From NCBI GenBank assembly GCA_951799425.1, contig OX637394.1, positions 52,951,142-53,015,141 on the forward strand: a stretch of DNA of 64,000 nt, given 5' to 3'. Source of the DNA: Ilex aquifolium (lineage: Eukaryota; Streptophyta; Magnoliopsida; Aquifoliales; Aquifoliaceae). A program made the position numbers and the translations under genes. Positions 20,873 to 60,294 of this stretch are shown piece by piece. Within the stretch, counting starts at the first letter, position 1. Each line of letters begins with the position of its first letter. Below the pieces are notes generated by a model that was not told where the DNA came from, did no database searches, and worked only from the letters and a program-made list of their open reading frames with translations.

Positions 20873-22770
20873 GACATAACTTTTTACTCCGGTCTCTGAT
20901 TAAGATGATTCTTGCGGCATTGTAAAGAATTCTTGAATCCCTAACCACTTTATTCACATCAATAGTCATGAAAAATCCTCTAGCATGGGCTATATTGTAA
21001 CGCAAGTTTGGTGTAGTAAGGAGTCATCCTTTAAAATGAAATAGTATATCCGACATAACATTTTCTCCCGAAATCGGATTGAGCTAACTCTTGCGGCATT
21101 GTAAAGAGAACTTGAAACCCTAACCAATATATTGAGATCAAAATTGGTGATTCATCTTCTAGCAAGGTCGAAATGGTGATGGAAGTTTGGTATAGTTGGC
21201 CATTCCCCTCCACAAGGAAAAATAAGTAATTTCCCATTCTTTAGTATTTCTGACATAACTTTTTACTCCGGTCTCTGATTAAGATGATTCTTATGGCATT
21301 GTAAAGAATTCTTGAATCCCTAACCACTTTATTCACATCAATAGTCATGAAAAATCCTCTAGCATGGGTTTTATTGTAACGCAAGTTTGGTGTAATAAGT
21401 AGTCCTCCTTTAAAATGAAATAGTATATCCGACATAACTTTTTCTCCCGAAATCGGATTGAGCTAACTCTTGCGGCATTGTATAGAGAACTTGAAACCCT
21501 AACCAATATATTGCGATCAAAATTGGTGATTCATCTTCTAGCAAGGTCGAAATGGTGATGGAAGTTTGGTATAGTTGGCCATTCCCCTCCACAAGGAAAA
21601 ATAAGTAATTTCCCATTCTTTAGTATTTCTGACATAACTTTTTACTCCGGTCTCTGATTAAGATGATTCTTGCGGCATTGTAAAGAATTCTTGAATCCCT
21701 AACCACTTTATTCACATCAATAGTCATGAAAAATCCTCTAGCATGGGCTATATTGTAATGCAATTTTGGTGTAATAAGTAGTCCTCCTTTAAAATGAAAT
21801 AGCATATCCGACCTAACTTTTTCTCCCGAAATCGGATTGAGCTAACTCTTGCGGCATTGTAAAGAGAACTTGAAACCCTAACCAATATATTGAGATCAAA
21901 ATTGGTGATTCATCTTCTACCATGGTCGAAATGGTGATGGAAGTTTGGAATAGTTAGCCATTCCCCTCCACAAGGAAAAATAAGTAATTTCCCATTCTTT
22001 AGTATTTCTGACTTAACTTTTTACTCCGGTCTCTGATTAAGATGATTCTTGCGGCATTGTAAAGAATTCTTGAATCCCTAACCACTTTATTCACATCAAT
22101 AGTCATGAAAAATCCTCTAGCATGGGCTATATTGTAACGCAAGTTTGGTGTAATAAGTAGTAGTCATCCTTTAAAATGAAATAGTATATCCGACATAACT
22201 TTTTCTCCCGACATCGGATTGAGCTAACTCTTGCGGCATTGTAAAGAGAACTTGAAACCCTAACCAATATATTGCGATCAAAATTGGTGATTCATCTTCT
22301 AGCAAGGTCGAAATGGTGATGGAAGTTTGGTATAGTTGGCCATTCCCCTCCACAAGGAAAAATAAGTAATTTCCCATTCTTTAGTATTTCTGATATAACT
22401 TTTTACTCCGGTCTCTGATTAAGATGATTCTTGTGGTATTGTAAAGAATACTTGAATCCCTAACAACTTTATTCACATCAATAGTCATGAAAAATCCTCT
22501 AGCATGGGCTATATTGTAACGCAAGTTTGGTGTAGTAAGTAGTCCTCCTTTAAAATGAAATAGTATATCCGACATAACTTTTTCTCCCGAAATCGGATTG
22601 AGCTAACTCTTGCGGCATTGTAAAGAGAACTTGAAACCCTAACCAATATATTGCGATCAAAATTGGTGATTCATCTTCTAGCAAGGTCGAAATGGTGATG
22701 GAAGTTTGGAATAGTTGGCCATTCCCATCCACAAGGAAAAATAAGTAATTTCCCATTCTTTAGTATTTCT

Positions 22771-23149
22771 GACATAACTTTTTACTCCGGTCTCTGATTA
22801 AGATGATTCTTGCGGCATTGTAAAGAATTCTTGAATCCCTAACCACTTTATTCACATCAATAGTCATGAAAAATCCTCTAGCATGGGCTATATTGTAATG
22901 CAAGTTTGGTGTAGTAAGTAGTCATCCTTTAAAATGAAATAGTCTATCCGACATAACTTTTTCTCCCGAAATCGGGTTGAGCTAACTCTTGCGGCATTGT
23001 AAAGAGAACTTGAAACCCTAACCAATATATTGAGATCAAAATTGGTGATTCATCTTCTAACAAGTTCGAAATGGTGATGGAAGTTTGGTATAGTTGGCCA
23101 TTCCCCTCCACAAGGAAAAAAAAGTAATTTCCCATTCTTTCTTATTTCT
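22771..23149 (+). repeat. Type monomer N
   Basis: Half B has gtctatccgac, ctaacaagttcgaaat, ggaaaaaaaagtaa and ctttcttatttc instead of gcaaggtcg, gaaaaataag and ctttagtatttc. These changes are shared with E and F, so N, E and F form one deep sub-lineage of the family. Confidence 0.88.
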
Positions 23150-23527
23150 GACATAACTTTTTACTCCGGTCTCTGATTAAGTTGATTCTTGCTGCATTGT
23201 AAAGTATTCTTGAATCCCTAACCATTTTATTCACATCAAAAGTCATGAAAAATCCTCTAGCGTGGGCTATATTGCAACGCAAATTTTGTGTAATAAGTAG
23301 TCCTCCTTTAAAATGAAATAGTCTATCGGACATAACTTTTTCTCCCGAACTCGGATTGAGCTAATTATTGCGGCATTGTAAAGAGAACTTGAAACCCTAA
23401 ACAATATATTGAGATCAAAATTGGTGATTCATCTTCTAACAAGTTCGAAATGGTGATGGAAGTTTGGTATAGGTGCCATTCCCCTCCACAAGGAAAAAAA
23501 AGTAATTTCCCATTCTTTCTTATTTCT
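23150..23527 (+). repeat. Type monomer E (378 bp)
   Basis: Marked by tatcggacataac, cccgaactcgg, gctaattattgcgg, tataggtgccatt (one base short) and the aaaaaaaag run. Only three E units exist in the window (23,150, 45,504 and near 58,401), each inside the same ordered cassette. Confidence 0.88.
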
Positions 23528-23906
23528 GACATAACTTTTTACTCCGGTCTCTGATTAAGTTGATTGTTGCGGCATTGTGAAGAATTCTTGAATCCCTAAC
23601 CATTTTATTCACATCAAAAGTCATGAAAAATTCTCTACCATGGGCTATATTGCAACGCAAATTTGGTGTAATAGGTAGTCCTCCTTTAAAATGAAATAGT
23701 ATATCCGACATAACTTTTTCTCCCGAAATCGGATTGAGCTAACTCTTGCGGCATTGTAAAGAAAACTTGAAACCCTAAGCAATATATTCCGATCAAAATT
23801 GGTGATTCATCTTCTAGCAAGGTCGAAATGGTGATGGAAGTTTGGTATAGTTGGCCATTCCCCTCCACAAGGAAAAATAAGTAATTTCCCATTCTTTAGT
23901 ATTTCT
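23528..23906 (+). repeat. Type monomer Gc
   Basis: Half B has ccctaagcaatatattcc with gcattgtaaagaaaac here. Half A comes from the N/E/F lineage (ttgtgaagaattc, ttgcaacgcaaatttgg), while half B is ordinary G-like. The unit is therefore a mosaic whose switch lies near the A/B junction. A related half B recurs at 41,711. Confidence 0.85.
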
Positions 23907-24285
23907 GACATAACTTTTTACTCCGGTCTCTGATTAAGATGATTCTTGCGGCATTGTAAAGAATTCTTGAATCCCTAACCACTTTATTCACATCAATAGT
24001 CATGAAAAATCCTTTAGCATGGGCTATATTGTAACGCAAGTTTGGTGTAGTAAGTAGTCATCCTTTAAAATGAAATAGTATATCCGACATAACTTTTTCT
24101 CCCGAAATCGGATTGAGCTAACTCTTGCGGCATTGTAAAGAGAACTTGAAACCCTAACCAATATATTGCGATCAAAATTGGTGATTCATCTTCTAGCAAG
24201 GTCGAAATGGTGATGGAAGTTTGGTATAGTTGGCCATTCCCCTCCACAAGGAAAAATAAGTAATTTCCCATTCTTTAGTATTTCT

Positions 24286-24664
24286 GACATAACTTTTTAC
24301 TCCGGTCTCTGATTAAGTTGATTCTTGCGGCATTGTGAAGAATTCTTGAATCCCTAACCATTTTATTCACATCAAAAGTCATGACAAATTCTCTAGCATG
24401 GGCTATATTGCAACGCAAATTTGGTGTAATAAGTAGTCCTCATTTAAAATGAAATAGTCTATCGGACATAACTTTTTCTCCCGAACTTGGATTGAGCTAA
24501 TTCTTGCGGCATTGTAAAGAGAACTTGAAACCCTAACCAATATATTCAGATCAAAATTGGTGATTCATCTTCTAACAAGTTCGAAATAGTGATGGAAGTT
24601 TGGTATAGTTGGCCATTCCCCTCCACAAGGAAAAAAAAGTAATTTCCCATTCTTTCTTATTTCT
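24286..24664 (+). repeat. Type monomer F
   Basis: Half A has attaagttgattc, ttgtgaagaattc, catcaaaagtcatg and ttgcaacgcaaatttgg. Half B has tcggacataac, cccgaacttgg, gctaattcttg and attcagatc. In most later copies ggtgattcatc is shortened by one base to ggtgatcatc. The CCGA-N2-TCGG dyad of half B is lost. Confidence 0.88.
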
Positions 24665-25043
24665 GACATAACTTTTTACTCCGGTCTCTGATTAAGTTGA
24701 TTCTTGCGGCATTGTAAAGAATTCTTGAATCCCTAACCACTTTATTCACATCAATAGTCATGAAAAATCCTCTAGCATGGGCTATATTGTAACGCAATTT
24801 TGGTGTAATAAGTAGTCCTTCTTTAAAATGAAATAGTATATCCGACATAACTTTTTCTCCCGAAATCGGATTGAGCTAACTCTTGCGGCATTGTAAAAAG
24901 AACTTGAAACCCTAACCAATATATTGAGATCAAAATGGGTGATTCATCTTCTACCATGGTCGAAATGGTGATGGAAGTTTGGAATAGTTAGCCATTCCCC
25001 TCCACAAGGAAAAATAAGTAATTTCCCATTCTTTAGTATTTCT
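24665..25043 (+). repeat. Type monomer D2
   Basis: Half A starts with F-lineage bases (gttgattc) then turns to ordinary sequence. Half B has gtaaaaagaac, ctaccatggtcg and ggaatagttagcc as in D. Many later copies also have cccaaaccac in half A and ccttttttaaaatg at the junction. D2 is always preceded by F and nearly always followed by V. Confidence 0.87.
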
Positions 25044-26940
25044 GACTTAACTTTTTACTCCGGTCTCTGATTAAGATGATTCTTGCGGCATTGTAAAGAA
25101 TTCTTGAATCCCTAACCACTTTATTCACATCAATAGTCATGAAAAATCCTCTAGCATGGGCTATATTGTAACGCAAGTTTGGTGTAATAAGTAGTAGTCA
25201 TCCTTTAAAATGAAATAGTATATCCGACATAACTTTTTCTCCCGACATCGGATTGAGCTAACTCTTGCGGCATTGTAAAGAGAACTTGAAACCCTAACCA
25301 ATATATTGCGATCAAAATTGGTGATTCATCTTCTAGCAAGGTCGAAATGGTGATGGAAGTTTGGTATAGTTGGCCATTCCCCTCCACAAGGAAAAATAAG
25401 TAATTTCCCATTCTTTAGTATTTCTGACATAACTTTTTACTCCGGTCTCTGATTAAGATGATTTTTGTGGCATTGTAAAGAATTCTTGAATCCCTAACCA
25501 CTTTATTCACATCAATAGTCATGAAAAATCCTCTAGCATGGGCTATATTGTAACGCAAGTTTGGTGTAGTAAGTAGTCCTCCTTTAAAATGAAATAGTAT
25601 ATCCGACATAACTTTTTCTCCCGAAATCGGATTGAGCTAACTCTTGCGGCATTGTAAAGAGAACTTGAAACCCTAACCAATATATTGCGATCAAAATTGG
25701 TGATTCATCTTCTAGCAAGGTCGAAATGGTGATGGAAGTTTGGTATAGTTGGCCATTTCCCTCCACAAGGAAAAATAAGTAATTTCCCATTCTTTAGTAT
25801 TTCTGACATAACTTTTTACTCCGGTCTCTGATTAAGATGATTCTTGCGGCATTGTAAAGAATTCTTGAATCCCTAACCACTTTATTCACATCAATAGTCA
25901 TGAAAAATCCTCTAGCATGGGCTATATTGTAACGCAAGTTTGGTGTAGTAAGTAGTCATCCTTTAAAATGAAATAGTATATCCGACATAACTTTTTCTCC
26001 CGAAATCGGATTGAGCTAACTCTTGCGGCATTGTAAAGAGAACTTGAAACCCTAACCAATATATTGCGATCAAAATTGGTGATTCATCTTCTAGCAAGGT
26101 CGAAATGGTGATGGAAGTTTGGTATAGTTGGCCATTCCCCTCCACAAGGAAAAATAAGTAATTTCCCATTCTTTAGTATTTCTGACATAACTTTTTACTC
26201 CGGTCTCTGATTAAGTTGATTCTTGCGGCATTGTGAAGAATTCTTGAATCCCTAACCATTTTATTCACATCAAAAGTCATGAAAAATTCTCTAGCATGGG
26301 CTATATTGCAACGCAAATTTGGTGTAATAAGTAGTCCTCATTTAAAATGAAATAGTCTATCGGACATAACTTTTTCTCCCGAACTTGGATTGAGCTAATT
26401 CTTGCGGCATTGTAAAGAGAACTTGAAACCCTAACCAATATATTCAGATCAAAATTGGTGATCATCTTCTAACAAGTTCGAAATGGTGATGGAAGTTTGG
26501 TATAGTTGGCCATTCCCCTCCACAAGGAAAAAAAAGTAATTTCCCATTCTTTCTTATTTCTGACATAACTTTTTACTCCGGTCTCTGATTAAGTTGATTC
26601 TTGCGGCATTGTAAAGAATTCTTGAATCCCAAACCACTTTATTCACATCAATAGTCATGAAAAATCCTCTAGCATGGGCTATATTGTAACGCAATTTTGG
26701 TGTAATAAGTAGTCCTTTTTTAAAATGAAATAGTATATCCGACATAACTTTTTCTCCCGAAATCGGATTGAGCTAACTCTTGCGGCATTGTAAAAAGAAC
26801 TTGAAACCCTAACCAATATATTGAGATCAAAATTGGTGATTCATCTTCTACCATGGTCGAAATGGTGATGGAAGTTTGGAATAGTTAGCCATTCCCCTCC
26901 ACAAGGAAAAATAAGTAATTTCCCATTCTTTAGTATTTCT
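25044..26940 (+). repeat. 5-mer HOR V A A F D2 (1,897 bp)
   Basis: First unit of the V-F-D2 domain. The second monomer has a W-type half A but an A-type half B. This is the simple form from which the following 9-mers can be derived by losing one unit through a D2/V fusion. The length is 5 x 379 plus 3 (V) minus 1 (F). Confidence 0.88.
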
Positions 26941-29900
26941 GACTTAACTTTTTACTCCGGTCTCTGATTAAGATGATTCTTGCGGCATTGTAAAGAATTC
27001 TTGAATCCCTAACCACTTTATTCACATCAATAGTCATGAAAAATCCTCTAGCATGGGCTATATTGTAACGCAAGTTTGGTGTAATAAGTAGTAGTCATCC
27101 TTTAAAATGAAATAGTATATCCGACATAACTTTTTCTCCCGACATCGGATTGAGCTAACTCTTGCGGCATTGTAAAGAGAACTTGAAACCCTAACCAATA
27201 TATTGCGATCAAAATTGGTGATTCATCTTCTAGCAAGGTCGAAATGGTGATGGAAGTTTGGTGTAGTTGGCCATTCCCCTCCACAAGGAAAAATAAGTAA
27301 TTTCCCATTCTTTAGTATTTCTGACATAACTTTTTACTCCGGTCTCTGATTAAGATGATTCTTGTGGCATTGTAAAGAATTCTTGAATCCCTAACCACTT
27401 TATTCACATCAATAGTCATGAAAAATCCTCTAGCATGGGCTATATTGTAACGCAAGTTTGGTGTAGTAAGTAGTCCTCCTTTAAAATGAAATAGTATATC
27501 CGACATAACTTTTTCTCCCGAAATCGGATTGAGCTAACTCTTGCGGCATTGTAAAGAGAACTTGAAACCCTAACCAATATATTGCGATCAAAATTGGTGA
27601 TTCATCTTCTAGCAAGGTCGAAATGGTGATGGAAGTTTGGAATAGTTGGCCATTCCCATCCACAAGGAAAAATAAGTAATTTCCCATTCTTTAGTATTTC
27701 TGACATAACTTTTTACCCCGGTCTCTGATTAAGATGATTCTTGCGGCATTGTAAAGAATTCTTGAATCCCTAACCACTTTATTCACATCAATAGTCATGA
27801 AAAATCCTCTAGCATGGGCTATATTGTAACGCAAGTTTGGTGTAGTAAGTAGTCATCCTTTAAAATGAAATAGTATATCCGACATAACTTTTTCTCCCGA
27901 AATCGGATTGAGCTAACTCTTGCGGCATTGTAAAGAGAACTTGAAACCCTAACCAATATATTGCGATCAAAATTGGTGATTCATCTTCTAGCAAGGTCGA
28001 AATGGTGATGGAAGTTTGGTATAGTTGGCCATTCCCCTCCACAAGGAAAAATAAGTAATTTCCCATTCTTTAGTATTTCTGACATAACTTTTTACTCCGG
28101 TCTCTGATTAAGTTGATTCTTGCGGCATTGTGAAGAATTCTTGAATCCCTAACCATTTTATTCACATCAAAAGTCGTGAAAAATTCTCTAGCATGGGCTA
28201 TATTGCAACGCAAATTTGGTGTAATAAGTAGTCCTCATTTAAAATGAAATAGTCTATCGGACATAACTTTTTCTCCCGAACTTGGATTGAGCTAATTCTT
28301 GCGGCATTGTAAAGAGAACTTGAAACCCTAACCAATATATTCAGATCAAAATTGGTGATCATCTTCTAACAAGTTCGAAATGGTGATGGAAGTTTGGTAT
28401 AGTTGGCCATTCCCCTCCACAAGGAAAAAAAAGTAATTTCCCATTCTTTCTTATTTCTGACATAACTTTTTACTCCGGTCTCTGATTAAGTTGATTCTTG
28501 CGGCATTGTAAAGAATTCTTGAATCCCAAACCACTTTATTCACATCAATAGTCATGAAAAATCCTCTAGCATGGGCTATATTGTAACGCAATTTTGGTGT
28601 AATAAGTAGTCCTTTTTTAAAATGAAATAGTATATCCGACATAACTTTTTCTCCCGAAATCGGATTGAGCTAACTCTTGCGGCATTGTAAAAAGAACTTG
28701 AAACCCTAACCAATATATTGCGATCAAAATTGGTGATTCATCTTCTAGCAAGGTCGAAATGGTGATGGAAGTTTGGTGTAGTTGGCCATTCCCCTCCACA
28801 AGGAAAAATAAGTAATTTCCCATTCTTTAGTATTTCTGACATAACTTTTTACTCCGGTCTCTGATTAAGATGATTCTTGTGGCATTGTAAAGAATTCTTG
28901 AATCCCTAACCACTTTATTCACATCAATAGTCATGAAAAATCCTCTAGCATGGGCTATATTGTAACGCAAGTTTGGTGTAGTAAGTAGTCCTCCTTTAAA
29001 ATGAAATAGTATATCCGACATAACTTTTTCTCCCGAAATCGGATTGAGCTAACTCTTGCGGCATTGTAAAGAGAACTTGAAACCCTAACCAATATATTGC
29101 GATCAAAATTGGTGATTCATCTTCTAGCAAGGTCGAAATGGTGATGGAAGTTTGGAATAGTTGGCCATTCCCATCCACAAGGAAAAATAAGTAATTTCCC
29201 ATTCTTTAGTATTTCTGACATAACTTTTTACCCCGGTCTCTGATTAAGATGATTCTTGCGGCATTGTAAAGAATTCTTGAATCCCTAACCACTTTATTCA
29301 CATCAATAGTCATGAAAAATCCTCTAGCATGGGCTATATTGTAACGCAAGTTTGGTGTAGTAAGTAGTCATCCTTTAAAATGAAATAGTATATCCGACAT
29401 AACTTTTTCTCCCGAAATCGGATTGAGCTAACTCTTGCGGCATTGTAAAGAGAACTTGAAACCCTAACCAATATATTGCGATCAAAATTGGTGATTCATC
29501 TTCTAGCAAGGTCGAAATGGTGATGAAAGTTTGGTATAGTTGGCCATTCCCCTCCACAAGGAAAAATAAGTAATTTCCCATTCTTTAGTATTTCTGACAT
29601 AACTTTTTACTCCGGTCTCTGATTAAGTTTATTCTTGCGGCATTGTGAAGAATTCTTGAATCCCTAACCATTTTATTCACATCAAAAGTCATGAAAAATT
29701 CTCTAGCATGGGCTATATTGCAACGCAAATTTGGTGTAATAAGTAGTCCTCATTTAAAATGAAATAGTCTATCGGACATAACTTTTTCTCCCGAACTTGG
29801 ATTGAGCTAATTCTTGCGGCATTGTAAAGAGAACTTGAAACCCTAACCAATATATTCAGATCAAAATTGGTGATCATCTTCTAACAAGTTCGAAATGGTG

Positions 29901-30352
29901 ATGGAAGTTTGGTATAGTTGGCCATTCCCCTCCACAAGGAAAAAAAAGTAATTTCCCATTCTTTCTTATTTCTGACATAACTTTTTACTCCGGTCTCTGA
30001 TTAAGTTGATTCTTGCGGCATTGTAAAGAATTCTTGAATCCCAAACCACTTTATTCACATCAATAGTCATGAAAAATCCTCTAGCATGGGCTATATTGTA
30101 ACGCAATTTTGGTGTAATAAGTAGTCCTTTTTTAAAATGAAATAGTATATCCGACATAACTTTTTCTCCCGAAATCGGATTGAGCTAACTCTTGCGGCAT
30201 TGTAAAAAGAACTTGAAACCCTAACCAATATATTGAGATCAAAATTGGTGATTCATCTTCTACCATGGTCGAAATGGTGATGGAAGTTTGGAATAGTTAG
30301 CCATTCCCCTCCACAAGGAAAAATAAGTAATTTCCCATTCTTTAGTATTTCT
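26941..30352 (+). repeat. 9-mer HOR copy 1 (3,412 bp)
   Basis: Order V W A F [D2/V hybrid] W A F D2. It is followed directly by a second copy of identical length and order. Private changes in this copy include aaagtcgtgaaa near 28,173 and gatgaaagtttgg near 29,522. W-A junctions carry tttttaccccgg in place of tttttactccgg. Confidence 0.92.
28459..28837 (+). repeat. D2/V hybrid monomer, first copy
   Basis: The left part is D2 (cccaaaccac, ccttttttaaaatg, gtaaaaagaac). The right part is V (attgcgatc, agcaaggtcg, tttggtgtagttgg). The last D2 marker is at 28,692 and the first V marker at 28,721, so the switch lies in about 28 bases common to both parents. The unit lacks the extra AGT of V. It shortens a ten-monomer pair of 5-mers to nine. 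Confidence 0.9.
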
Positions 30353-33300
30353 GACTTAACTTTTTACTCCGGTCTCTGATTAAGATGATTCTTGCGGCAT
30401 TGTAAAGAATTCTTGAATCCCTAACCACTTTATTCACATCAATAGTCATGAAAAATCCTCTAGCATGGGCTATATTGTAACGCAAGTTTGGTGTAATAAG
30501 TAGTAGTCATCCTTTAAAATGAAATAGTATATCCGACATAACTTTTTCTCCCGACATCGGATTGAGCTAACTCTTGCGGCATTGTAAAGAGAACTTGAAA
30601 CCCTAACCAATATATTGCGATCAAAATTGGTGATTCATCTTCTAGCAAGGTCGAAATGGTGATGGAAGTTTGGTGTAGTTGGCCATTCCCCTCCACAAGG
30701 AAAAATAAGTAATTTCTCATTCTTTAGTATTTCTGACATAACTTTTTACTCCGGTCTCTGATTAAGATGATTCTTGTGGCATTGTAAAGAATTCTTGAAT
30801 CCCTAACCACTTTATTCACATCAATAGTCATGAAAAATCCTCTAGCATGGGCTATATTGTAACGCAAGTTTGGTGTAGTAAGTAGTCCTCCTTTAAAATG
30901 AAATAGTATATCCGACATAACTTTTTCTCCCGAAATCGGATTGAGCTAACTCTTGCGGCATTGTAAAGAGAACTTGAAACCCTAACCAATATATTGCGAT
31001 CAAAATTGGTGATTCATCTTCTAGCAAGGTCGAAATGGTGATGGAAGTTTGGAATAGTTGGTCATTCCCATCCACAAGGAAAAATAAGTAATTTCCCATT
31101 CTTTAGTATTTCTGACATAACTTTTTACCCCGGTCTCTGATTAAGATGATTCTTGCGGCATTGTAAAGAATTCTTGAATCCCTAACCACTTTATTCACAT
31201 CAATAGTCATGAAAAATCCTCTAGCATGGGCTATATTGTAACGCAAGTTTGGTGTAGTAAGTAGTCATCCTTTAAAATGAAATAGTATATCCGACATAAC
31301 TTTTTCTCCCGAAATCGGATTGAGCTAACTCTTGCGGCATTGTAAAGAGAACTTGAAACCCTAACCAATATATTGCGATCAAAATTGGTGATTCATCTTC
31401 TAGCAAGGTCGAAATGGTGATGGAAGTTTGGTATAGTTGGCCATTCCCCTCCACAAGGAAAAATAAGTAATTTCCCATTCTTTAGTATTTCTGACATAAC
31501 TTTTTACTCCGGTCTCTGATTAAGTTGATTCTTGCGGCATTGTGAAGAATTCTTGAATCCCTAACCATTTTATTCACATCAAAAGTCATGAAAAATTCTC
31601 TAGCATGGGCTATATTGCAACGCAAATTTGGTGTAATAAGTAGTCCTCATTTAAAATGAAATAGTCTATCGGACATAACTTTTTCTCCCGAACTTGGATT
31701 GAGCTAATTCTTGCGGCATTGTAAAGAGAACTTGAAACCCTAACCAATATATTCAGATCAAAATTGGTGATCATCTTCTAACAAGTTCGAAATGGTGATG
31801 GAAGTTTGGTATAGTTGGCCATTCCCCTCCACAAGGAAAAAAAAGTAATTTCCCATTCTTTCTTATTTCTGACATAACTTTTTACTCCGGTCTCTGATTA
31901 AGTTGATTCTTGCGGCATTGTAAAGAATTCTTGAATCCCAAACCACTTTATTCACATCAATAGTCATGAAAAATCCTCTAGCATGGGCTATATTGTAACG
32001 CAATTTTGGTGTAATAAGTAGTCCTTTTTTAAAATGAAATAGTATATCCGACATAACTTTTTCTCCCGAAATCGGATTGAGCTAACTCTTGCGGCATTGT
32101 AAAAAGAACTTGAAACCCTAACCAATATATTGCGATCAAAATTGGTGATTCATCTTCTAGCAAGGTCGAAATGGTGATGGAAGTTTGGTGTAGTTGGCCA
32201 TTCCCCTCCACAAGGAAAAATAAGTAATTTCCCATTCTTTAGTATTTCTGACATAACTTTTTACTCCGGTCTCTGATTAAGATGATTCTTGTGGCATTGT
32301 AAAGAATTCTTGAATCCCTAACCACTTTATTCACATCAATAGTCATGAAAAATCCTCTAGCATGGGCTATATTGTAACGCAAGTTTGGTGTAGTAAGTAG
32401 TCCTCCTTTAAAATGAAATAGTATATCCGACATAACTTTTTCTCCCGAAATCGGATTGAGCTAACTCTTGCGGCATTGTAAAGAGAACTTGAAACCCTAA
32501 CCAATATATTGCGATCAAAATTGGTGATTCATCTTCTAGCAAGGTCGAAATGGTGATGGAAGTTTGGAATAGTTGGCCATTCCCATCCACAAGGAAAAAT
32601 AAGTAATTTCCCATTCTTTAGTATTTCTGACATAACTTTTTACCCCGGTCTCTGATTAAGATGATTCTTGCGGCATTGTAAAGAATTCTTGAATCCCTAA
32701 CCACTTTATTCACATCAATAGTCATGAAAAATCCTCTAGCATGGGCTATATTGTAACGCAAGTTTGGTGTAGTAAGTAGTCATCCTTTAAAATGAAATAG
32801 TATATCCGACATAACTTTTTCTCCCGAAATCGGATTGAGCTAACTCTTGCGGCATTGTAAAGAGAACTTGAAACCCTAACCAATATATTGCGATCAAAAT
32901 TGGTGATTCATCTTCTAGCAAGGTCGAAATGGTGATGGAAGTTTGGTATAGTTGGTCATTCCCCTCCACAAGGAAAAATAAGTAATTTCCCATTCTTTAG
33001 TATTTCTGACATAACTTTTTACTCCGGTCTCTGATTAAGTTGATTCTTGCGGCATTGTGAAGAATTCTTGAATCCCTAACCATTTTATTCACATCAAAAG
33101 TCATGAAAAATTCTCTAGCATGGGCTATATTGCAACGCAAATTTGGTGTAATAAGTAGTCCTCATTTAAAATGAAATAGTCTATCGGACATAACTTTTTC
33201 TCCCGAACTTGGATTGAGCTAATTCATGCGGCATTGTAAAGAGAACTTGAAACCCTAACCAATATATTCAGATCAAAATTGGTGATCATCTTCTAACAAG

Positions 33301-33764
33301 TTCGAAATGGTGATGGAAGTTTGGTATAGTTGGCCATTCCCCTCCACAAGGAAAAAAAAGTAATTTCCCATTCTTTCTTATTTCTGACATAACTTTTTAC
33401 TCCGGTCTCTGATTAAGTTGATTCTTGCGGCATTGTAAAGAATTCTTGAATCCCAAACCACTTTATTCACATCAATAGTCATGAAAAATCCTCTAGCATG
33501 GGCTATATTGTAACGCAATTTTGGTGTAATAAGTAGTCCTTTTTTAAAATGAAATAGTATATCCGACATAACTTTTTCTCCCGAAATCGGATTGAGCTAA
33601 CTCTTGCGGCATTGTAAAAAGAACTTGAAACCCTAACCAATATATTGAGATCAAAATTGGTGATTCATCTTCTACCATGGTCGAAATGGTGATGGAAGTT
33701 TGGAATAGTTAGCCATTCCCCTCCACAAGGAAAAATAAGTAATTTCCCATTCTTTAGTATTTCT
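30353..33764 (+). repeat. 9-mer HOR copy 2 (3,412 bp)
   Basis: Same order and length as the unit before it, including the D2/V hybrid monomer at the same offset. It differs by a few scattered bases, such as taatttctcattc near 30,714 and ttggtcattc near 31,059 and 32,953. The near identity of two 3.4-kb copies points to a recent duplication. Confidence 0.92.
31871..32249 (+). repeat. D2/V hybrid monomer, second copy
   Basis: Same mosaic as the unit 3,412 bp to its left, with the switch between about 32,104 and 32,133. An identical junction in both places means the recombination happened once, before the 9-mer was duplicated. Confidence 0.9.
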
Positions 33765-47397: not shown

Positions 47398-49295
47398 GAC
47401 TTAACTTTTTACTCCGGTCTCTGATTAAGATGATTCTTGCGGCATTGTAAAGAATTCTTGAATCCCTAACCACTTTATTCACATCAATAGTCATGAAAAA
47501 TCCTTTAGCATGGGCTATATTGTAACGCAAGTTTGGTGTAGTAAGGAGTCATCCTTTAAAATGAAATAGTATATCCGACATAACATTTTCTCCCGAAATC
47601 GGATTGAGCTAACTCTTGCGGCATTGTAAAGAGAACTTGAAACCCTAACCAATATATTGAGATCAAAATTGGTGATTCATCTTCTAGCAAGGTCGAAATG
47701 GTGATGGAAGTTTGGTATAGTTGGCCATTCCCCTCCACAAGGAAAAATAAGTAATTTCCCATTCTTTAGTATTTCTGACATAACTTTTTACTCCGGTCTC
47801 TGATTAAGATGATTCTTGCGGAATTGTAAAGAATTCTTGAATCCCTAACCACTTTATTCACATCAATAGTCATGAAAAATCCTCTAGCATGGGCTTTATT
47901 GTAACGCAAGTTTGGTGTAATAAGTAGTCCTCCTTTAAAATGAAATAGTATATCCGACATAACTTTTTCTCCCGAAATCGGATTGAGCTAACTCTTGCGG
48001 CATTGTAAAGAGAACTTGAAACCCTAACCAATATATTGAGATCAAAATTGGTGATTCATCTTCTAGCAAGGTCGAAATGGTGATGGAAGTTTGGTATAGT
48101 TGGCCATTCCCCTCCACAAGGAAAAATAAGTAATTTCCCATTCTTTAGTATTTCTGACATAACTTTTTACTCCGGTCTCTGATTAAGATGATTCTTGCGG
48201 CATTGTAAAGAATTCTTGAATCCCTAACCACTTTATTCACATCAATAGTCATGAAAAATCCTCTAGCATGGGCTATATTGTAACGCAATTTTGGTGTAAT
48301 AAGTAGTCCTCCTTTAAAATGAAATAGCATATCCGACCTAACTTTTTCTCCCGAAATCGGATTGAGCTAACTCTTGCGGCATTGTAAAGAGAACTTGAAA
48401 CCCTAACCAATATATTGAGATCAAAATTGGTGATTCATCTTCTACCATGGTCGAAATGGTGATGGAAGTTTGGAATAGTTAGCCATTCCCCTCCACAGGG
48501 AAAAATAAGTAATTTCCCATTCTTTAGTATGTCTGACTTAACTTTTTACTCCGGTCTCTGATTAAGATGATTCTTGCGGCATTGTAAAGAATTCTTGAAT
48601 CCCTAACCACTTTATTCACATCAATAGTCATGAAAAATCCTCTAGCATGGGCGATATTGTAACGCAAGTTTGGTGTAATAAGTAGTAGTCATCCTTTAAA
48701 ATGAAATAGTATATCCGACATAACTTTTTCTCCCGACATCGGATTGAGCTAACTCTTGCGGCATTGTAAAGAGAACTTGAAACCCTAACCAATATATTGC
48801 GATCAAAATTGGTGATTCATCTTCTAGCAAGGTCGAAATGGTGATGGAAGTTTGGTATAGTTGGCCATTCCCCTCCACAAGGAAAAATAAGTAATTTCCC
48901 ATTCTTTAGTATTTCTGACATAACTTTTTACTCCGGTCTCTGATTAAGATGATTCTTGCGGCATTGTAAAGAATTCTTGAATCCCTAACCACTTTATTCA
49001 CATCAATAGTCATGAAAAATCCTCTAGCATGGGCTATATTGTAACGCAAGTTTGGTGTAGTAAGGAGTCATCCTTTAAAATGAAATAGTATATCCGACAT
49101 AACATTTTCTCCCGAAATCGGATTGAGCTAACTCTTGCGGCATTGTAAAGAGAACTTGAAACCCTAACCAATATATTGAGATCAAAATTGGTGATTCATC
49201 TTCTAGCAAGGTCGAAATGGTGATGGAAGTTTGGTATAGTTGGCCATTCCCCTCCACAAGGAAAAATAAGTAATTTCCCATTCTTTAGTATTTCT
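47398..49295 (+). repeat. Mixed block C S D V C
   Basis: Five monomers linking two ordered regions. The first C follows D2, an unusual junction, with cctttagcatgg in its half A (near 47,500). The D V pair is ordinary, but V is then followed by C in place of W. The D unit is followed by atgtctgacttaac near 48,529, a private change. Confidence 0.83.
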
Positions 49296-52200
49296 GACAT
49301 AACTTTTTACTCCGGTCTCTGATTAAGATGATTCTTACGGCATTGTGAAGAATTCTTGAATCCCTAACCACCTTATTCACATCAATAGTCATGAAAAATC
49401 CTCTAGCATGGGCTTTATTGTAACGCAAGTTTGGTGTAATAAGTAGTCCTCCTTTAAAATGAAATAGTATATCCGACATAACTTTTTCTCCCGAAATCGG
49501 ATTGAGCTAACTCTTGCGGCATTGTAAAGAGAACTTGAAACCCTAACCAATATATTGAGATCAAAATTGGTGATTCATCTTCTAGCAAGGTCGAAATGGT
49601 GATGGAAGTTTGGTATAGTTGGCCATTCCCCTCCACAAGGAAAAATAAGTAATTTCCCATTCTTTAGTATTTCTGACATAACTTTTTACTCCGGTCTCTG
49701 ATTAAGATGATTCTTGCGGCATTGTAAAGAATTCTTGAATCCCTAACCACTTTATTCACATCAATAGTCATGAAAAATCCTCTAGCATGGGCTATATTGT
49801 AACACAAGTTTGGTGTAGTAAGGAGTCATCCTTTAAAATGAAATAGTATATCCGACATAACATTTTCTCCCGAAATTGGATTGAGCTAACTCTTGCGGCA
49901 TTGTAAAGAGAACTTGAAACCCTAACCAATATATTGAGATCAAAATTGGTGATTCATCTTCTAGCAAGGTCGAAATGGTGATGGAAGTTTGGTATAGTTG
50001 GCCATTCCCCTCCACAAGGAAAAATAAGTAATTTCCCATTCTTTAGTATTTCTGACATAACTTTTTACTCCGGTCTCTGATTAAGATGATTCTTACGGCA
50101 TTGTAAAGAATTCTTGAATCCCTAACCACTTTATTCACATCAATAGTCATGAAAAATCCTCTAGCATGGGCTTTATTGTAACGCAAGTTTGGTGTAATAA
50201 GTAGTCCTCCTTTAAAATGAAATAGTATATCCGACATAACTTTTTCTCCCGAAATCGGATTGAGCTAACTCTTGCGGCATTGTAAAGAGAACTTGAAACC
50301 CTAACCAATATATTGCGATCAAAATTGGTGATTCATCTTCTAGCAAGGTCGAAATGGTGATGGAAGTTTGGAATAGTTGGCCATTCCCATCCACAAGGAA
50401 AAATAAGTAATTTCCCATTCTTTAGTATTTCTGACATAACTTTTTACTCCGGTCTCTGATTAAGATGATTCTTGCGGCATTGTAAAGAATTCTTGAATCC
50501 CTAACCACTTTATTCACATCAATAGTCATGAAAAATCCTCTAGCATGGGCTATATTGTAACGCAAGTTTGGTGTAGTAAGTAGTCATCCTTTAAAATGAA
50601 ATAGTCTATCCGACATAACTTTTTCTCCCGAAATCGGATTGAGTTAACTCTTGCGGCATTGTAAAGAGAACTTGAAACCCTAACCAATATATTGAGATCA
50701 AAATTGGTGAATCATCTTCTAACAAGTTCGAAATGGTGATGGAAGTTTGGTATAGTTGGCCATTCCCCTCCACAAGGAAAAAAAAGTAATTTCCCATTCT
50801 TTCTTATTTCTGACATAACTTTTTACTCCGGTCTCTGATTAAGTTGATTCTTGCGGCATTGTAAAGAATTCTTGAATCCCTAACCACTTTATTCACATCA
50901 ATAGTCATGAAAAATCCTCTAGCATGGGCTTTATTGTAACGCAAGTTTGGTGTAATAAGTAGTCCTCCTTTAAAATGAAATAGTATATCCGACATAACTT
51001 TTTCTCCCGAAATCGGATTGAGCTAACTCTTGCGGCATTGTATAGAGAACTTGAAACCCTAACCAATATATTGCGATCAAAATTGGTGATTCATCTTCTA
51101 GCAAGGTCGAAATGGTGATGGAAGTTTGGTATAGTTGGCCATTCCCCTCCACAAGGAAAAATAAGTAATTTCCCATTCTTTAGTATTTCTGACATAACTT
51201 TTTACTCCGGTCTCTGATTAAGATGATTCTTGCGGCATTGTAAAGAATTCTTGAATCCCTAACCACTTTATTCACATCAATAGTCATGAAAAATCCTCTA
51301 GCATGGGCTATATTGTAACACAATTTTGGTGTAATAAGTAGTCCTCCTTTAAAATGAAATAGCATATCCGACCTAACTTTTTCTCCCGAAATCGGATTGA
51401 GCTAACTCTTGCGGCATTGTAAAGAGAACTTGAAACCCTAACCAATATATTGAGATCAAAATTGGTGATTCATCTTCTACCATGGTCGAAATGGTGATGG
51501 AAGTTTGGAATAGTTAGCCATTCCCCTCCACAGGGAAAAATAAGTAATTTCCCATTCTTTAGTATTTCTGACTTAACTTTTTACTCCGGTCTCTGATTAA
51601 GATGATTCTTGCGGCATTGTAAAGAATTCTTGAATCCCTAACCACTTTATTCACATCAATAGTCATGAAAAATCCTCTAGCATGGGCTATATTGTAACGC
51701 AAGTTTGGTGTAATAAGTAGTAGTCATCCTTTAAAATGAAATAGTATATCCGACATAACTTTTTCTCCCGACATCGGATTGAGCTAACTCTTGCGGCATT
51801 GTAAAGAGAACTTGAAACCCTAACCAATATATTGCGATCAAAATTGGTGATTCATCTTCTAGCAAGGTCGAAATGGTGATGGAAGTTTGGTATAGTTGGC
51901 CATTCCCCTCCACAAGGAAAAATAAGTAATTTCCCATTCTTTAGTATTTCTGACATAACTTTTTACTCCGGTCTCTGATTAAGATGATTCTTGTGGCATT
52001 GTAAAGAATTCTTGAAACCCTAACCACTTTATTCACATCAATAGTCATGAAAAATCCTCTAGCATGGGCTATATTGTAACGCAAGTTTGGTGTAGTAAGT
52101 AGTCCTCCTTTAAAATGAAATAGTATATCCGACATAACTTTTTCTCCCGAAATCGGATTGAGCTAACTCTTGCGGCATTGTAAAGAGAACTTGAAACCCT

Positions 52201-53088
52201 AACCAATATATTGCGATCAAAACTGGTGATTCATCTTCTAGCAAGGTCGAAATGGTGATGGAAGTTTGGAATAGTTGGCCATTCCCATCCACAAGGAAAA
52301 ATAAGTAATTTCCCATTCTTTAGTATTTCTGACATAACTTTTTACTCCGGTCTCTTATTAAGATGATTCTTGCGGCATTGTAAAGAATTCTTGAATCCCT
52401 AACCACTTTATTCACATCAATAGTCATGAAAAATCCTCTAGCATGGGCTATATTGTAACGCAAGTTTGGTGTAGTAAGTAGTCATCCTTTAAAATGAAAT
52501 AGTCTATCCGACATAACTTTTTCTCCCGAAATCGGATTGAGCTAACTCTTGCGGCATTGTAAAGAGAACTTGAAACCCTAACCAATATATTGAGATCAAA
52601 ATTGGTGATTCATCTTCTAACAAGTTCGAAATGGTGATGGAAGTTTGGTATAGTTGGCCATTCCCCTCCACAAGGAAAAAAAAGTAATTTCCCATTCTTT
52701 CTTATTTCTGACATAACTTTTTACTCCGGTCTCTGATTAAGTTGATTCTTGCGGCATTGTAAAGAATTCTTGAATCCCTAACCACTTTATTCACATCAAT
52801 AGTCATGAAAAATCCTCTAGCATGGGCTTTATTGTAACGCAAGTTTGGTGTAATAAGTAGTCCTCCTTTAAAATGAAATAGTATATCCGACATAACTTTT
52901 TCTCCCGAAATCGGATTGAGCTAACTCTTGCGGCATTGTATAGAGAACTTGAAACCCTAACCAATATATTGCGATCAAAATTGGTGATTCATCTTCTAGC
53001 AAGGTTGAAATGGTGATGGAAGTTTGGTATAGTTGGCCATTCCCCTCCACAAGGAAAAATAAGTAATTTCCCATTCTTTAGTATTTCT
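49296..53088 (+). repeat. 10-mer HOR copy 1 (3,793 bp)
   Basis: Order S C W N A' D V W N A'. Rare markers shared with the next copy at a 3,793-bp offset include ccaccttattc (49,371), cccgaaattgg (near 49,871), ggtgaatcatc (near 50,706) and ggttgaaatgg (near 53,004). A private change is ctcttattaag near 52,352. Confidence 0.92.
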
Positions 53089-56000
53089 GACATAACTTTT
53101 TACTCCGGTCTCTGATTAAGATGATTCTTACGGCATTGTGAAGAATTCTTGAATCCCTAACCACCTTATTCACATCAATAGTCATGAAAAATCCTCTAGC
53201 ATGGGCTTTATTGTAACGCAAGTTTGGTGTAATAAGTAGTCCTCCTTTAAAATGAAATAGTATATCCGACATAACTTTTTCTCCCGAAATCGGATTGAGC
53301 TAACTCTTGCGGCATTGTAAAGAGAACTTGAAACCCTAACCAATATATTGAGATCAAAATTGGTGATTCATCTTCTAGCAAGGTCGAAATGGTGATGGAA
53401 GTTTGGTATAGTTGGCCATTCCCCTCCACAAGGAAAAATAAGTAATTTCCCATTCTTTAGTATTTCTGACATAACTTTTTACTCCGGTCTCTGATTAAGA
53501 TGATTCTTGCGGCATTGTAAAGAATTCTTGAATCCCTAACCACTTTATTCACATCAATAGTCATGAAAAATCCTCTAGCATGGGCTATATTGTAACACAA
53601 GTTTGGTGTAGTAAGGAGTCATCCTTTAAAATGAAATAGTATATCCGACATAACATTTTCTCCCGAAATTGGATTGAGCTAACTCTTGCGGCATTGTAAA
53701 GAGAACTTGAAACCCTAACCAATATATTGAGATCAAAATTGGTGATTCATCTTCTAGCAAGGTCGAAATGGTGATGGAAGTTTGGTATAGTTGGCCATTC
53801 CCCTCCACAAGGAAAAATAAGTAATTTCCCATTCTTTAGTATTTCTGACATAACTTTTTACTCCGGTCTCTGATTAAGATGATTCTTACGGCATTGTAAA
53901 GAATTCTTGAATCCCTAACCACTTTATTCACATCAATAGTCATGAAAAATCCTCTAGCATGGGCTTTATTGTAACGCAAGTTTGGTGTAATAAGTAGTCC
54001 TCCTTTAAAATGAAATAGTATATCCGACATAACTTTTTCTCCCGAAATCGGATTGAGCTAACTCTTGCGGCATTGTAAAGAGAACTTGAAACCCTAACCA
54101 ATATATTGCGATCAAAATTGGTGATTCATCTTCTAGCAAGGTCGAAATGGTGATGGAAGTTTGGAATAGTTGGCCATTCCCATCCACAAGGAAAAATAAG
54201 TAATTTCCCATTCTTTAGTATTTCTGACATAACTTTTTACTCCGGTCTCTGATTAAGATGATTCTTGCGGCATTGTAAAGAATTCTTGAATCCCTAACCA
54301 CTTTATTCACATCAATAGTCATGAAAAATCCTCTAGCATGGGCTATATTGTAACGCAAGTTTGGTGTAGTAAGTAGTCATCCTTTAAAATGAAATAGTCT
54401 ATCCGACATAACTTTTTCTCCCGAAATCGGATTGAGTTAACTCTTGCGGCATTGTAAAGAGAACTTGAAACCCTAACCAATATATTGAGATCAAAATTGG
54501 TGAATCATCTTCTAACAAGTTCGAAATGGTGATGGAAGTTTGGTATAGTTGGCCATTCCCCTCCACAAGGAAAAAAAAGTAATTTCCCATTCTTTCTTAT
54601 TTCTGACATAACTTTTTACTCCGGTCTCTGATTAAGTTGATTCTTGCGGCATTGTAAAGAATTCTTGAATCCCTAACCACTTTATTCACATCAATAGTCA
54701 TGAAAAATCCTCTAGCATGGGCTTTATTGTAACGCAAGTTTGGTGTAATAAGTAGTCCTCCTTTAAAATGAAATAGTATATCCGACATAACTTTTTCTCC
54801 CGAAATCGGATTGAGCTAACTCTTGCGGCATTGTATAGAGAACTTGAAACCCTAACCAATATATTGCGATCAAAATTGGTGATTCATCTTCTAGCAAGGT
54901 CGAAATGGTGATGGAAGTTTGGTATAGTTGGCCATTCCCCTCCACAAGGAAAAATAAGTAATTTCCCATTCTTTAGTATTTCTGACATAACTTTTTACTC
55001 CGGTCTCTGATTAAGATGATTCTTGCGGCATTGTAAAGAATTCTTGAATCCCTAACCACTTTATTCACATCAATAGTCATGAAAAATCCTCTAGCATGGG
55101 CTATATTGTAACACAATTTTGGTGTAATAAGTAGTCCTCCTTTAAAATGAAATAGCATATCCGACCTAACTTTTTCTCCCGAAATCGGATTGAGCTAACT
55201 CTTGCGGCATTGTAAAGAGAACTTGAAACCCTAACCAATATATTGAGATCAAAATTGGTGATTCATCTTCTACCATGGTCGAAATGGTGATGGAAGTTTG
55301 GAATAGTTAGCCATTCCCCTCCACAGGGAAAAATAAGTAATTTCCCATTCTTTAGTATTTCTGACTTAACTTTTTACTCCGGTCTCTGATTAAGATGATT
55401 CTTGCGGCATTGTAAAGAATTCTTGAATCCCTAACCACTTTATTCACATCAATAGTCATGAAAAATCCTCTAGCATGGGCTATATTGTAACGCAAGTTTG
55501 GTGTAATAAGTAGTAGTCATCCTTTAAAATGAAATAGTATATCCGACATAACTTTTTCTCCCGACATCGGATTGAGCTAACTCTTGCGGCATTGTAAAGA
55601 GAACTTGAAACCCTAACCAATATATTGCGATCAAAATTGGTGATTCATCTTCTAGCAAGGTCGAAATGGTGATGAAAGTTTGGTATAGTTGGCCATTCCC
55701 CTCCACAAGGAAAAATAAGTAATTTCCCATTCTTTAGTATTTCTGACATAACTTTTTACTCCGGTCTCTGATTAAGATGATTCTTGTGGCATTGTAAAGA
55801 ATTCTTGAAACCCTAACCACTTTATTCACATCAATAGTCATGAAAAATCCTCTAGCATGGGCTATATTGTAACGCAAGTTTGGTGTAGTAAGTAGTCCTC
55901 CTTTAAAATGAAATAGTATATCCGACATAACTTTTTCTCCCGAAATCGGATTGAGCTAACTCTTGCGGCATTGTAAAGAGAACTTGAAACCCTAACCAAT

Positions 56001-56881
56001 ATATTGCGATCAAAACTGGTGATTCATCTTCTAGCAAGGTCGAAATGGTGATGGAAGTTTGGAATAGTTGGCCATTCCCATCCACAAGGAAAAATAAGTA
56101 ATTTCCCATTCTTTAGTATTTCTGACATAACTTTTTACTCCGGTCTCTGATTAAGATGATTCTTGCGGCATTGTAAAGAATTCTTGAATCCCTAACCACT
56201 TTATTCACATCAATAGTCATGAAAAATCCTCTAGCATGGGCTATATTGTAACGCAAGTTTGGTGTAGTAAGTAGTCATCCTTTAAAATGAAATAGTCTAT
56301 CCGACATAACTTTTTCTCCCGAAATCGGATTGAGCTAACTCTTGCGGCATTGTAAAGAGAACTTGAAACCCTAACCAATATATTGAGATCAAAATTGGTG
56401 ATTCATCTTCTAACAAGTTCGAAATGGTGATGGAAGTTTGGTATAGTTGGCCATTCCCCTCCACAAGGAAAAAAAAGTAATTTCCCATTCTTTCTTATTT
56501 CTGACATAACTTTTTACTCCGGTCTCTGATTAAGTTGATTCTTGCGGCATTGTAAAGAATTCTTGAATCCCTAACCACTTTATTCACATCAATAGTCATG
56601 AAAAATCCTCTAGCATGGGCTTTATTGTAACGCAAGTTTGGTGTAATAAGTAGTCCTCCTTTAAAATGAAATAGTATATCCGACATAACTTTTTCTCCCG
56701 AAATCGGATTGAGCTAACTCTTGCGGCATTGTATAGAGAACTTGAAACCCTAACCAATATATTGCGATCAAAATTGGTGATTCATCTTCTAGCAAGGTTG
56801 AAATGGTGATGGAAGTTTGGTATAGTTGGCCATTCCCCTCCACAAGGAAAAATAAGTAATTTCCCATTCTTTAGTATTTCT
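53089..56881 (+). repeat. 10-mer HOR copy 2 (3,793 bp)
   Basis: Same ten monomers in the same order and total length as copy 1, with all four rare markers at the matching positions (for example ccaccttattc at 53,164 and ggttgaaatgg near 56,796). I noticed only a few differences by eye, such as gatgaaagtttgg near 55,671. This is among the most recent duplications in the window. Confidence 0.92.
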
Positions 56882-59800
56882 GACATAACTTTTTACTCCG
56901 GTCTCTGATTAAGATGATTCTTGCGGCATTGTAAAGAATTCTTGAATCCCTAACCACTTTATTCACATCAATAGTCATGAAAAATCCTCTAGCATGGGCT
57001 ATATTGTAACGCAATTTTGGTGTAATAAGTAGTCCTCCTTTAAAATGAAATAGCATATCCGACCTAACTTTTTCTCCCGAAATCGGATTGAGCTAACTCT
57101 TGCGTCATTGTAAAGAGAACTTGAAACCCTAACCAATATATTGAGATCAAAATTGGTGATTCATCGTCTACCATGGTCGAAATGGTGATGGAAGTTTGGA
57201 ATAGTTGGCCATTCCCCTCCACAAGGAAAAATAAGTAATTTCCCATTCTTTAGTATTTCTGACTTAACTTTTTACTCCGGTCTCTGATTAAGATGATTCT
57301 TGCGGCATTGTAAAGAATTCTTGAATCCCTAACCACTTTATTCACATCAATAGTCATGAAAAATCCTCTAGCATGGGCTATATTGTAACGCAAGTTTGGT
57401 GTAATAAGTAGTAGTCATCCTTTAAAATGAAATAGTATATCCGACAAAACTTTTTCTCCCGACATCGGATTGAGCTAACTCTTGCGGCATTGTAAAGAGA
57501 ACTTGAAACCCTAACCAATATATTGCGATCAAAATTGGTGATTCATCTTCTAGCAAGGTCGAAATGGTGATGGAAGTTTGGTATAGTTGGCCATTCCCCT
57601 CCACAAGGAAAAATAAGTAATTTCCCATTCTTTAGTATTTCTGACATAACTTTTTACTCCGGTCTCTGATTAAGTTGATTCTTGTGGCATTGTGAAGAAT
57701 TCTTGAATCCCTAACCACTTTATTCACATCAATAGTCATGAAAAATCCTCTAGCATGGGCTATATTGTAACGCAAGTTTGGTGTAGTAAGTAGTCCTCCT
57801 TTAAAATGAAATAGTATATCCGACATAACTTTTTCTCCCGAAATCGGATTGAGCTAACTCTTGCGGCATTGTAAAGAGAACTTGAAACCCTAACCAATAT
57901 ATTGCGATCAAAATTGGTGATTCATCTTCTAGCAAGGTCGAAATGGTGATGGAAGTTTGGAATAGTTGGCCATTCCCATCCACAAGGAAAAATAAGTAAT
58001 TTCCCATTCTTTAGTATTTCTGACATAACTTTTTACTCCGGTCTCTGATTAAGATGATTCTTGCGGCATTGTAAAGAATTCTTGAATCCCTAACCACTTT
58101 ATTCACATCAATAGTCATGAAAAATCCTCTAGCATGGGCTATATTGTAACGCAAGTTTGGTGTAGTAAGTAGTCATCCTTTAAAATGAAATAGTCTATCC
58201 GACATAACTTTTTCTCCCGAAATCGGATTGAGCTAACTCTTGCGGCATTGTAAAGAGAACTTGAAACCCTAACCAATATATTGAGATCAAAATTGGTGAT
58301 TCATCTTCTAACAAGTTCGAAATGGTGATGGAAGTTTGGTATAGTTGGCCATTCCCCTCCACAAGGAAAAAAAAGTAATTTCCCATTCTTTCTTATTTCT
58401 GACATAACTTTTTACTCCGGTCTCTGATTAAGTTGATTCTTGCGGCATTGTAAAGAATTCTTGAATCCCTAACCATTTTATTCACATCAAAAGTCATGAA
58501 AAATCCTCTAGCGTGGGCTATATTGCAACGCAAATTTTGTGTAATAAGTAGTCCTCCTTTAAAATGAAATAGTCTATCGGACATAACTTTTTCTCCCGAA
58601 CTCGGATTGAGCTAATTATTGCGGCATTGTAAAGAGAACTTGAAACCCTAACCAATATATTGAGATCAAAATTGGTGATTCATCTTCTAACAAGTTCGAA
58701 ATGGTGATGGAAGTTTGGTATAGGTGCCATTGCCCTCCACAAGGAAAAAAAAGTAATTTCCCATTCTTTCTTATTTCTGACATAACTTTTTACTCCGGTC
58801 TCTGATTAAGTTGATTCTTGCGGCATTGTGAAGAATTCTTGAATCCCTAACCATTTTATTCACATCAATAGTCATGAAAAATCCTCTACCATGGGCTATA
58901 TTGCAACGCAAATTTGGTGTAATAGGTAGTCCTCCTTTAAAATGAAATAGTATATCCGACATAACTTTTTCTCCCGAAATCGGATTGAGCTAACTCTTGC
59001 GGCATTGTAAAGACAACTTGAAACCCTAAGCAATATATTCCAATTAAAATTGGTGATTCATCTTCTAGCAAGGTCGAAATGGTGATGGAAGTTTGGTATA
59101 GTTGGCCATTCCCCTCCACAAGGAAAAATAAGTAATTTCCCATTCTTTAGTATTTCTGACATAACTTTTTACTCCGGTCTCTGATTAAGATGATTCTTGC
59201 GGCATTGTAAAGAATTCTTGAATCCCTAACCACTTTATTCACATCAATAGTCATGAAAAATCCTTTAGCATGGGCTATATTGTAACGCAAGTTTGGTGTA
59301 GTAAGTAGTCATCCTTTAAAATGAAATAGTATATCCGACATAACTTTTTCTCCCGAAATCGGATTGAGCTAACTCTTGCGGCATTGTAAAGAGAACTTGA
59401 AACCCTAACCAATATATTGCGATCAAAATTGGTGATTCATCTTCTAGCAAGGTCGAAATGGTGATGGAAGTTTGGTATAGTTGGCCATTCCTCTCCACAA
59501 GGAAAAATAAGTAATTTCCCATTCTTTAGTATTTCTGACATAACTTTTTACTCCGGTCTCTGATTAAGTTGATTCTTGCGGCATTGTGAAGAATTCTTGA
59601 ATCCCTAACCATTTTATTCACATCAAAAGTCATGAAAAATTCTCTAGCATGGGCTATATTGCAACGCAAATTTGGTGTAATAAGTAGTCCTCATTTAAAA
59701 TGAAATAGTCTATCGGACATAACTTTTTCTCCCGAACTTGGATTGAGCTAATTCTTGCGGCATTGTAAAGAGAACTTGAAACCCTAACCAATATATTCAG

Positions 59801-60294
59801 ATCAAAATTGGTGATTCATCTTCTAACAAGTTCGAAATGGTGATGGAAGTTTGGTATAGTTGGCCATTCCCCTCCACAAGGAAAAAAAAGTAATTTCCCA
59901 TTCTTTCTTATTTCTGACATAACTTTTTACTCCGGTCTCTGATTAAGTTGATTCTTGCGGCATTGTAAAGAATTCTTGAATCCCTAACCACTTTATTCAC
60001 ATCAATAGTCATGAAAAATCCTCTAGCATGGGCTATATTGTAACGCAATTTTGGTGTAATAAGTAGTCCTTCTTTAAAATGAAATAGTATATCCGACATA
60101 ACTTTTTCTCCCGAAATCGCATTGAGCTAACTCTTGCGGCATTGTAAAAAGAACATGAAACCCTAACCAATATATTGAGATCAAAATTGGTGATTCATCT
60201 TCTACCATGGTCGAAATGGTGATGGAAGTTTGGAATAGTTAGCCATTCCCCTCCACAAGGAAAAATAATTAATTTCCCATTCTTTAGTATTTCT
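56503..60294 (+). repeat. Ordered cassette copy 3: A' D V W N E Gc A F D2 (3,792 bp)
   Basis: Same ten monomers and same length as 21,252-25,043. It overlaps the last A' of the 10-mer copy before it, so the cassette is grafted onto the end of that repeat. The E unit has gcgtgggct like copy 1 but ccattgccc like copy 2. The Gc unit has attccaatt near 59,037, a further change from the attccgatt of copy 2. Confidence 0.9.

Follow-up and report, generated by a model that had tools for sequence, protein, structure and literature searches.

The window, 64,000 nucleotides of contig OX637394.1 of Ilex aquifolium (C4, positions 52,951,142-53,015,141; genome of 800 Mb in 103 contigs), is occupied throughout by one uninterrupted satellite array with a 379-bp monomer (168.8 copies with 96% matches in TRF). 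We divided it into 168 monomers, whose unit numbers (u) are phased 5 bases off those of the preliminary description. Each monomer comprises two related parts of ~179 and ~200 bp, and adjacent monomers in the window differ by 14 edits on average. Three times within the window, monomers of the types A', D, V, W, N, E, Gc, A, F and D2 follow one another in the same order (copies A, B and C; Table 1).

The array was also read over the 30 kb directly upstream and the 200 kb directly downstream of the window, over the final 10 kb of C4 and over one detached 10-kb stretch. The 379-bp monomer is present through the upstream 30 kb and most of the downstream 200 kb: the array runs to 53.0308 Mb, where a 25.6-kb insert breaks it, and restarts at 53.0564 Mb. 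A long (TTTAGGG)n tract from ~53.222 Mb closes the contig, ~0.2 Mb from the window, and the array reaches this tract, the reading leaving out 3 kb before the final 10 kb. To the left, matches on C4 extend to 52.18 Mb. The array is thus long, head-to-tail and built of a single monomer, and since it meets the terminal (TTTAGGG)n tract, we take it to be a plant subtelomeric satellite. Two monomers, at C4:53,088,394-53,088,667 and C4:53,142,086-53,142,388, deviate in length (273 and 481 bp); ~106 bp are lost in one and ~102 bp gained in the other, and the phase is kept elsewhere.

The insert (C4:53,030,796-53,056,369, ~15.7 kb past the end of the window) contains three tandem units of ~7,653 bp and a 2.6-kb terminal repeat. 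Its units are 99.8-99.9% identical to one another, the same five bases stand on both flanks (judged by eye), and a long reading frame was assigned by eye to the Ty3/gypsy type. We read it as three retrotransposons sharing LTRs, as unequal exchange between terminal repeats would make.

Table 1 Features of the satellite array, in positions of the window
Feature	Position	Strand	Remarks
Block with copy A	19728..27317	+	20 monomers, u131-150; gap-free against u224-243
Cassette copy A	21247..25038	+	ten monomers, A' D V W N E Gc A F D2; u135-144
E and Gc of copy A	23145..23901	+	rare monomers; Gc hybrid-looking (suggestive only)
Local nine-monomer repeat, A to B	25421..34520 (end approximate)	+	lag 9 over 15 monomers; 1.1 edits on average
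Local two-/four-monomer repeats, A to B	35660..41705	+	lags 2 and 4
Cassette copy B	43980..47392	+	nine monomers, W absent in phase; u195-203
E and Gc of copy B	45499..46255	+	rare monomers
Local ten-monomer doubling, B to C	49291..56876 (end approximate)	+	2 edits in 10 monomers
Block with copy C	54979..62566	+	20 monomers, u224-243; gap-free against u131-150
Cassette copy C	56498..60289	+	ten monomers; u228-237
E and Gc of copy C	58396..59152	+	rare monomers

The three cassettes and their rare monomers

Corresponding monomers of the cassettes differ by 1-6 edits in the comparisons A-B and A-C and by 0-3 edits at the six monomers compared between B and C, against 14 edits between neighbours. 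Monomer by monomer, the edits are 5, 4, 1, 6, 2, 4, 6, 1, 2 and 4 for A-C; 4, 3, 2, (W absent), 3, 5, 5, 1, 2 and 1 for A-B; and 1, 1, 3, 2, 0 and 3 at N, E, Gc, A, F and D2 for B-C. When cut in the phase of the preliminary description, A and C are equal in length (3,792 bp) and differ by 35 mismatches, and B measures 3,413 bp. The ordered ten-monomer cassette at three places, with W alone gone from B, and the identical length of the two full copies are therefore as first described. Many more copies between these three would have cast them as ordinary tandem neighbours; in this assembly no extra E- or Gc-type monomer lies between them.

In terms of cluster labels, two local patterns meet in the cassette. 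One has five monomers (N A' D V W), the other is built on A, F and D2 with fillers, and E-Gc stands between them. Beyond its three copies, Gc has its nearest relative 10 edits off among the 707 monomers compared. E occurs three times in the window, and telomere-proximal monomers of the same array (E-type monomers at C4:53,202,000-53,214,300) are 3-4 edits from it, which suggests that E is part of a subfamily abundant beside the telomere. The Gc monomer of copy A is fitted by a one-breakpoint hybrid with 4 edits, compared with 12 to its best single relative, the first part being F-type-like and the second resembling the monomer at 41,706. This improvement by 8 edits is no greater than the highest among 80 control monomers (median 4), which it equals, and the gain for Gc in B and C is 4, no higher than the control median, so that a hybrid nature of Gc is suggestive only. 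E gains next to nothing from a hybrid fit.

The initial impression that E and Gc are almost absent elsewhere is true of the window but not genome-wide. A 41-base Gc word has 50 occurrences in the genome, three on C4 and others on C17, C19, C20 and C26, and a 42-base E word has at least 112, four of them on C4 among the matches listed. Of these Gc places, three, each of them on C4, have the E word at the cassette spacing (366 bases); the E matches listed run past the last Gc place on C26. On that contig, E and Gc words come close together at ~0.08-0.16 Mb, at 770, 746 and 1125 bases and not at the cassette spacing, and the array there may have its own repeat made from the same monomer types. 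Their joint presence on C26 at other spacings, known from the word matches, counts against a reading in which blocks were duplicated within the C4 array only.

For a genome-wide search we used the 1,515-bp core N-E-Gc-A as query and scored 19 of 3783 candidate regions. Three matches at 99-100% were obtained among these scored regions, all on C4 and all being the cassette copies themselves; the next, at 97%, likewise lies on C4 and overlaps copy B by one monomer. No core match of at least 99% was found off C4 in the 19 regions, where other contigs reach 96% at most, and a missed copy is possible. The proposal that sister arrays exchanged the cassette finds no support in these regions. A sister-array source was rejected, as the E and Gc words on other contigs, among the matches listed, are never at cassette spacing and the core there reaches no more than 96% in the regions scored. 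As far as this search shows, copying appears to be confined to the C4 array.

The relationships of the copies were examined at polarised sites in the nine monomers common to A, B and C, using outgroup monomers and dropping gapped columns. Private derived changes number 14 in A, 8 in B and 10 in C; the sites that group copies are two for B+C, one for A+C and one for A+B, and three are ambiguous. A grouping of B with C, hinted at by the distances, is replaced by a near-star at these sites, a pattern suggesting that the copies separated within a short span. Such a near-star gives no order of events, which counts against the block-duplication reading.

Extent of the duplication and growth between the copies

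The homology between A and C extends past the cassette over 20 monomers without a gap, with 65 edits in ~7.6 kb (0.86%); the feature first delineated captures the cassette itself but was drawn too short. Collinearity between A and B covers 10 monomer pairs with one gap (u134-144 and u194-203), and that between B and C covers six monomers (u198-203 and u232-237). Gap-free homology past the unit, the mark of a segmental duplication, is thus present between A and C and not in B, which matches over 9-10 monomers only.

An eroded fourth copy, consisting of cassette C and its downstream block, lies at C4:53,020,532-53,026,700, ~6 kb beyond the window. It starts (~53,020,532) with an A'-like monomer (3 edits), a diverged monomer and N, and then passes straight to D2 and onward, skipping E, Gc, A and F; farther on, u241-244 are missing as well. 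The N monomer (u264) is identical to that of C, u265-268 are identical to u237-240, and u269-280 differ from u245-256 by 2 edits in total. Given this near-identity to C (2 edits over 17 aligned monomers, apart from the two missing sets of four), the block of C has been copied again very recently. The copying of ~10-kb blocks is therefore recent, and the fourth copy is the best single evidence for the mechanism proposed below. Together with the 20-monomer A/C block, it bears out the larger segmental duplication envisaged in the preliminary description.

The best collinear run between places at least 30 monomers apart scores 35, whereas 200 random reorderings of the monomers gave no more than 16. 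In 200 shuffles of five-monomer blocks the median is 25, the 95th percentile 33 and the maximum 48; the score alone is therefore not extreme, and its position inside the block-shuffle range counts against the block-duplication reading of the 20-monomer run. It is the rare pair E-Gc that gives the run its specificity.

Including the fourth copy, successive cassettes are 59, 34 and 32 monomers apart. The orders between them had been called unrelated, which is too strong, as several collinear pieces link the inter-copy stretches. Between A and B, 45 of the 50 monomers match another monomer of that gap within 2 edits, and 27 belong, as later members, to local runs (three or more monomers); between B and C the corresponding counts are 23 and 9 of 24. 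Local repeats between the copies carry 0.2-1.1 edits per monomer, compared with 3.5 in the A-C cassette, so that the nine-monomer repeat and the ten-monomer doubling have ~3 to 18 times fewer edits per monomer than the latter. The doubling extends to the first monomer of C. Across the array, near-identical monomer pairs fall from 5% at lags below 10 to 0.3-1.1% at lags 60-120, and tandem repeats exist only at local lags of 2-11. Since the local runs are less diverged than the cassettes, local growth would have made much of the inter-copy distance, which is presumably younger than the cassettes. The assertion that tandem growth does not explain the spacing is thus upheld for the origin of the copies, most likely made by block duplication, but not for the distance between them. 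At 35,660-41,705, a two-monomer pattern is repeated six times in what looks like a small local burst, one member of the pair having an unusual first part (a weak anchor).

We also considered one tandem duplication spanning the 35 kb from A to C. The homology starts at u131/u224, and the same lag of 93 returns at u155-162/u248-255, both in its favour. When the stretch between A and C is aligned by chaining with what follows C, the score of 51.6 falls inside the spread of 100 block shuffles (95th percentile 43, maximum 55). Such a duplication is therefore not shown, and this candidate was rejected.

Origin of the cassette copies

We consider it likely that out-of-register homologous exchange within the array duplicates and removes blocks of ~8-12 kb. 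All cassettes would derive from one ancestral stretch of the plant subtelomeric satellite array, and blocks of ~8-12 kb (20-30 monomers) would have been duplicated inside the array, either by unequal exchange between sister chromatids or homologues or by break repair invading the wrong repeat. Individual copies would later have been shortened by losses of whole monomers (W in B; E-Gc-A-F in the fourth copy), and the copies would have been pushed apart by younger local duplications. E-Gc, as a rare join of two monomer patterns, would keep the old block recognisable after its surroundings were reshuffled. Block duplication, whole-monomer losses and local growth would together be explained by out-of-register homologous exchange, a mechanism that we infer, along with its direction and the order of its steps, from the duplicated blocks and the less diverged local repeats; the observed differences in monomer number are likewise read as losses and not gains. 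The tandem units of the neighbouring insert count for exchange as the mechanism in the array beside it.

Gene conversion or break-induced replication could instead have pasted the cassette at a distance, replacing sequence and leaving the length unchanged. The confinement of A-C identity to 20 monomers would fit such an event, as would in-phase switches of type in the second half of N and near the middle of Gc, whose resemblance to conversion tracts is suggestive only. However, the fourth copy repeats a run of the monomers downstream of C with whole-monomer gaps, and other parts of the array plainly hold duplications that changed its length, which makes conversion an unlikely, if credible, source of the copies.

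We regard it as quite improbable that the cassette is a recurrent duplication unit, a ~12-kb macro-repeat with a recombination hot spot instead of a product of random reshuffling. The steps from B to C and from C to the fourth copy do measure 34 and 32 monomers (12-13 kb), the fourth copy being nearly identical to C. If this were true, the same stretch would have been re-copied towards the telomere, and the divergent E-Gc join would be a preferred exchange boundary.

An artefact in which the assembly placed both haplotypes in series, making A and C alleles of one block, is very improbable. The A-C divergence of ~0.9% would pass as ordinary allelic difference, but there are three copies and a fourth with private variants in each, the flanks of A, B and C differ, and the stretch belongs to one contig ending in telomere. 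The least credible account has extrachromosomal circles excised from the array and reinserted, possibly following rolling-circle amplification: a survey of circular DNA arising from plant satellites is reported (PMC2543021), but the order of monomers is the same and unpermuted in all three copies, and A and C have common flanks on either side.

Duplication by out-of-register exchange belongs to a well-known class of mechanism, and the behaviour of this satellite is ordinary, if unusually legible here. The array provides a readable record of the evolution of a fully assembled plant subtelomeric array, with older block duplications of ~8-12 kb, whole-monomer losses and less diverged local growth, and duplication events might be counted between haplotypes with rare monomers, for instance Gc, as markers.

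Comparison with known satellites

In the literature searched on 379-bp subtelomeric satellites, rye pSc200 was the one useful lead and the nearest described counterpart; a 16-base string of the present monomer was not found in the papers searched, and a search on CEN178 found nothing. The CS-1 satellite has a monomer of ~370 bp. CS-1, HSR1 and HJSR of Cannabaceae are plant subtelomeric satellites too, and their likeness to the present array is by description only (PMC12406709).

As in higher-order repeats, for which alpha satellite is the type case (PMC4857426), the order of the monomers is fixed and repeated and the copies are closer to each other than neighbouring monomers are. Unlike alpha-satellite higher-order repeats so described, the cassettes do not follow one another head to tail but are dispersed, with other orders between them, and only the local repeats are tandem.

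According to the same source, rye pSc200 is a 379-bp subtelomeric satellite located close to the telomere and organised in multimers of 2-8 monomers; its monomer trees are mainly star-like, and the authors invoke unequal crossing over, conversion and ectopic exchange (PMC4857426). The array on C4 resembles it, in a comparison by description only, in the 379-bp monomer, the subtelomeric location, the multi-monomer units and the star-like trees. In contrast to multimers of 2-8 monomers, the duplicate here comprises 20 monomers and is more irregular, in a genome of 800 Mb. Compared by description and not filed as pSc200, the present array would appear to be of the same kind, longer and more irregular.
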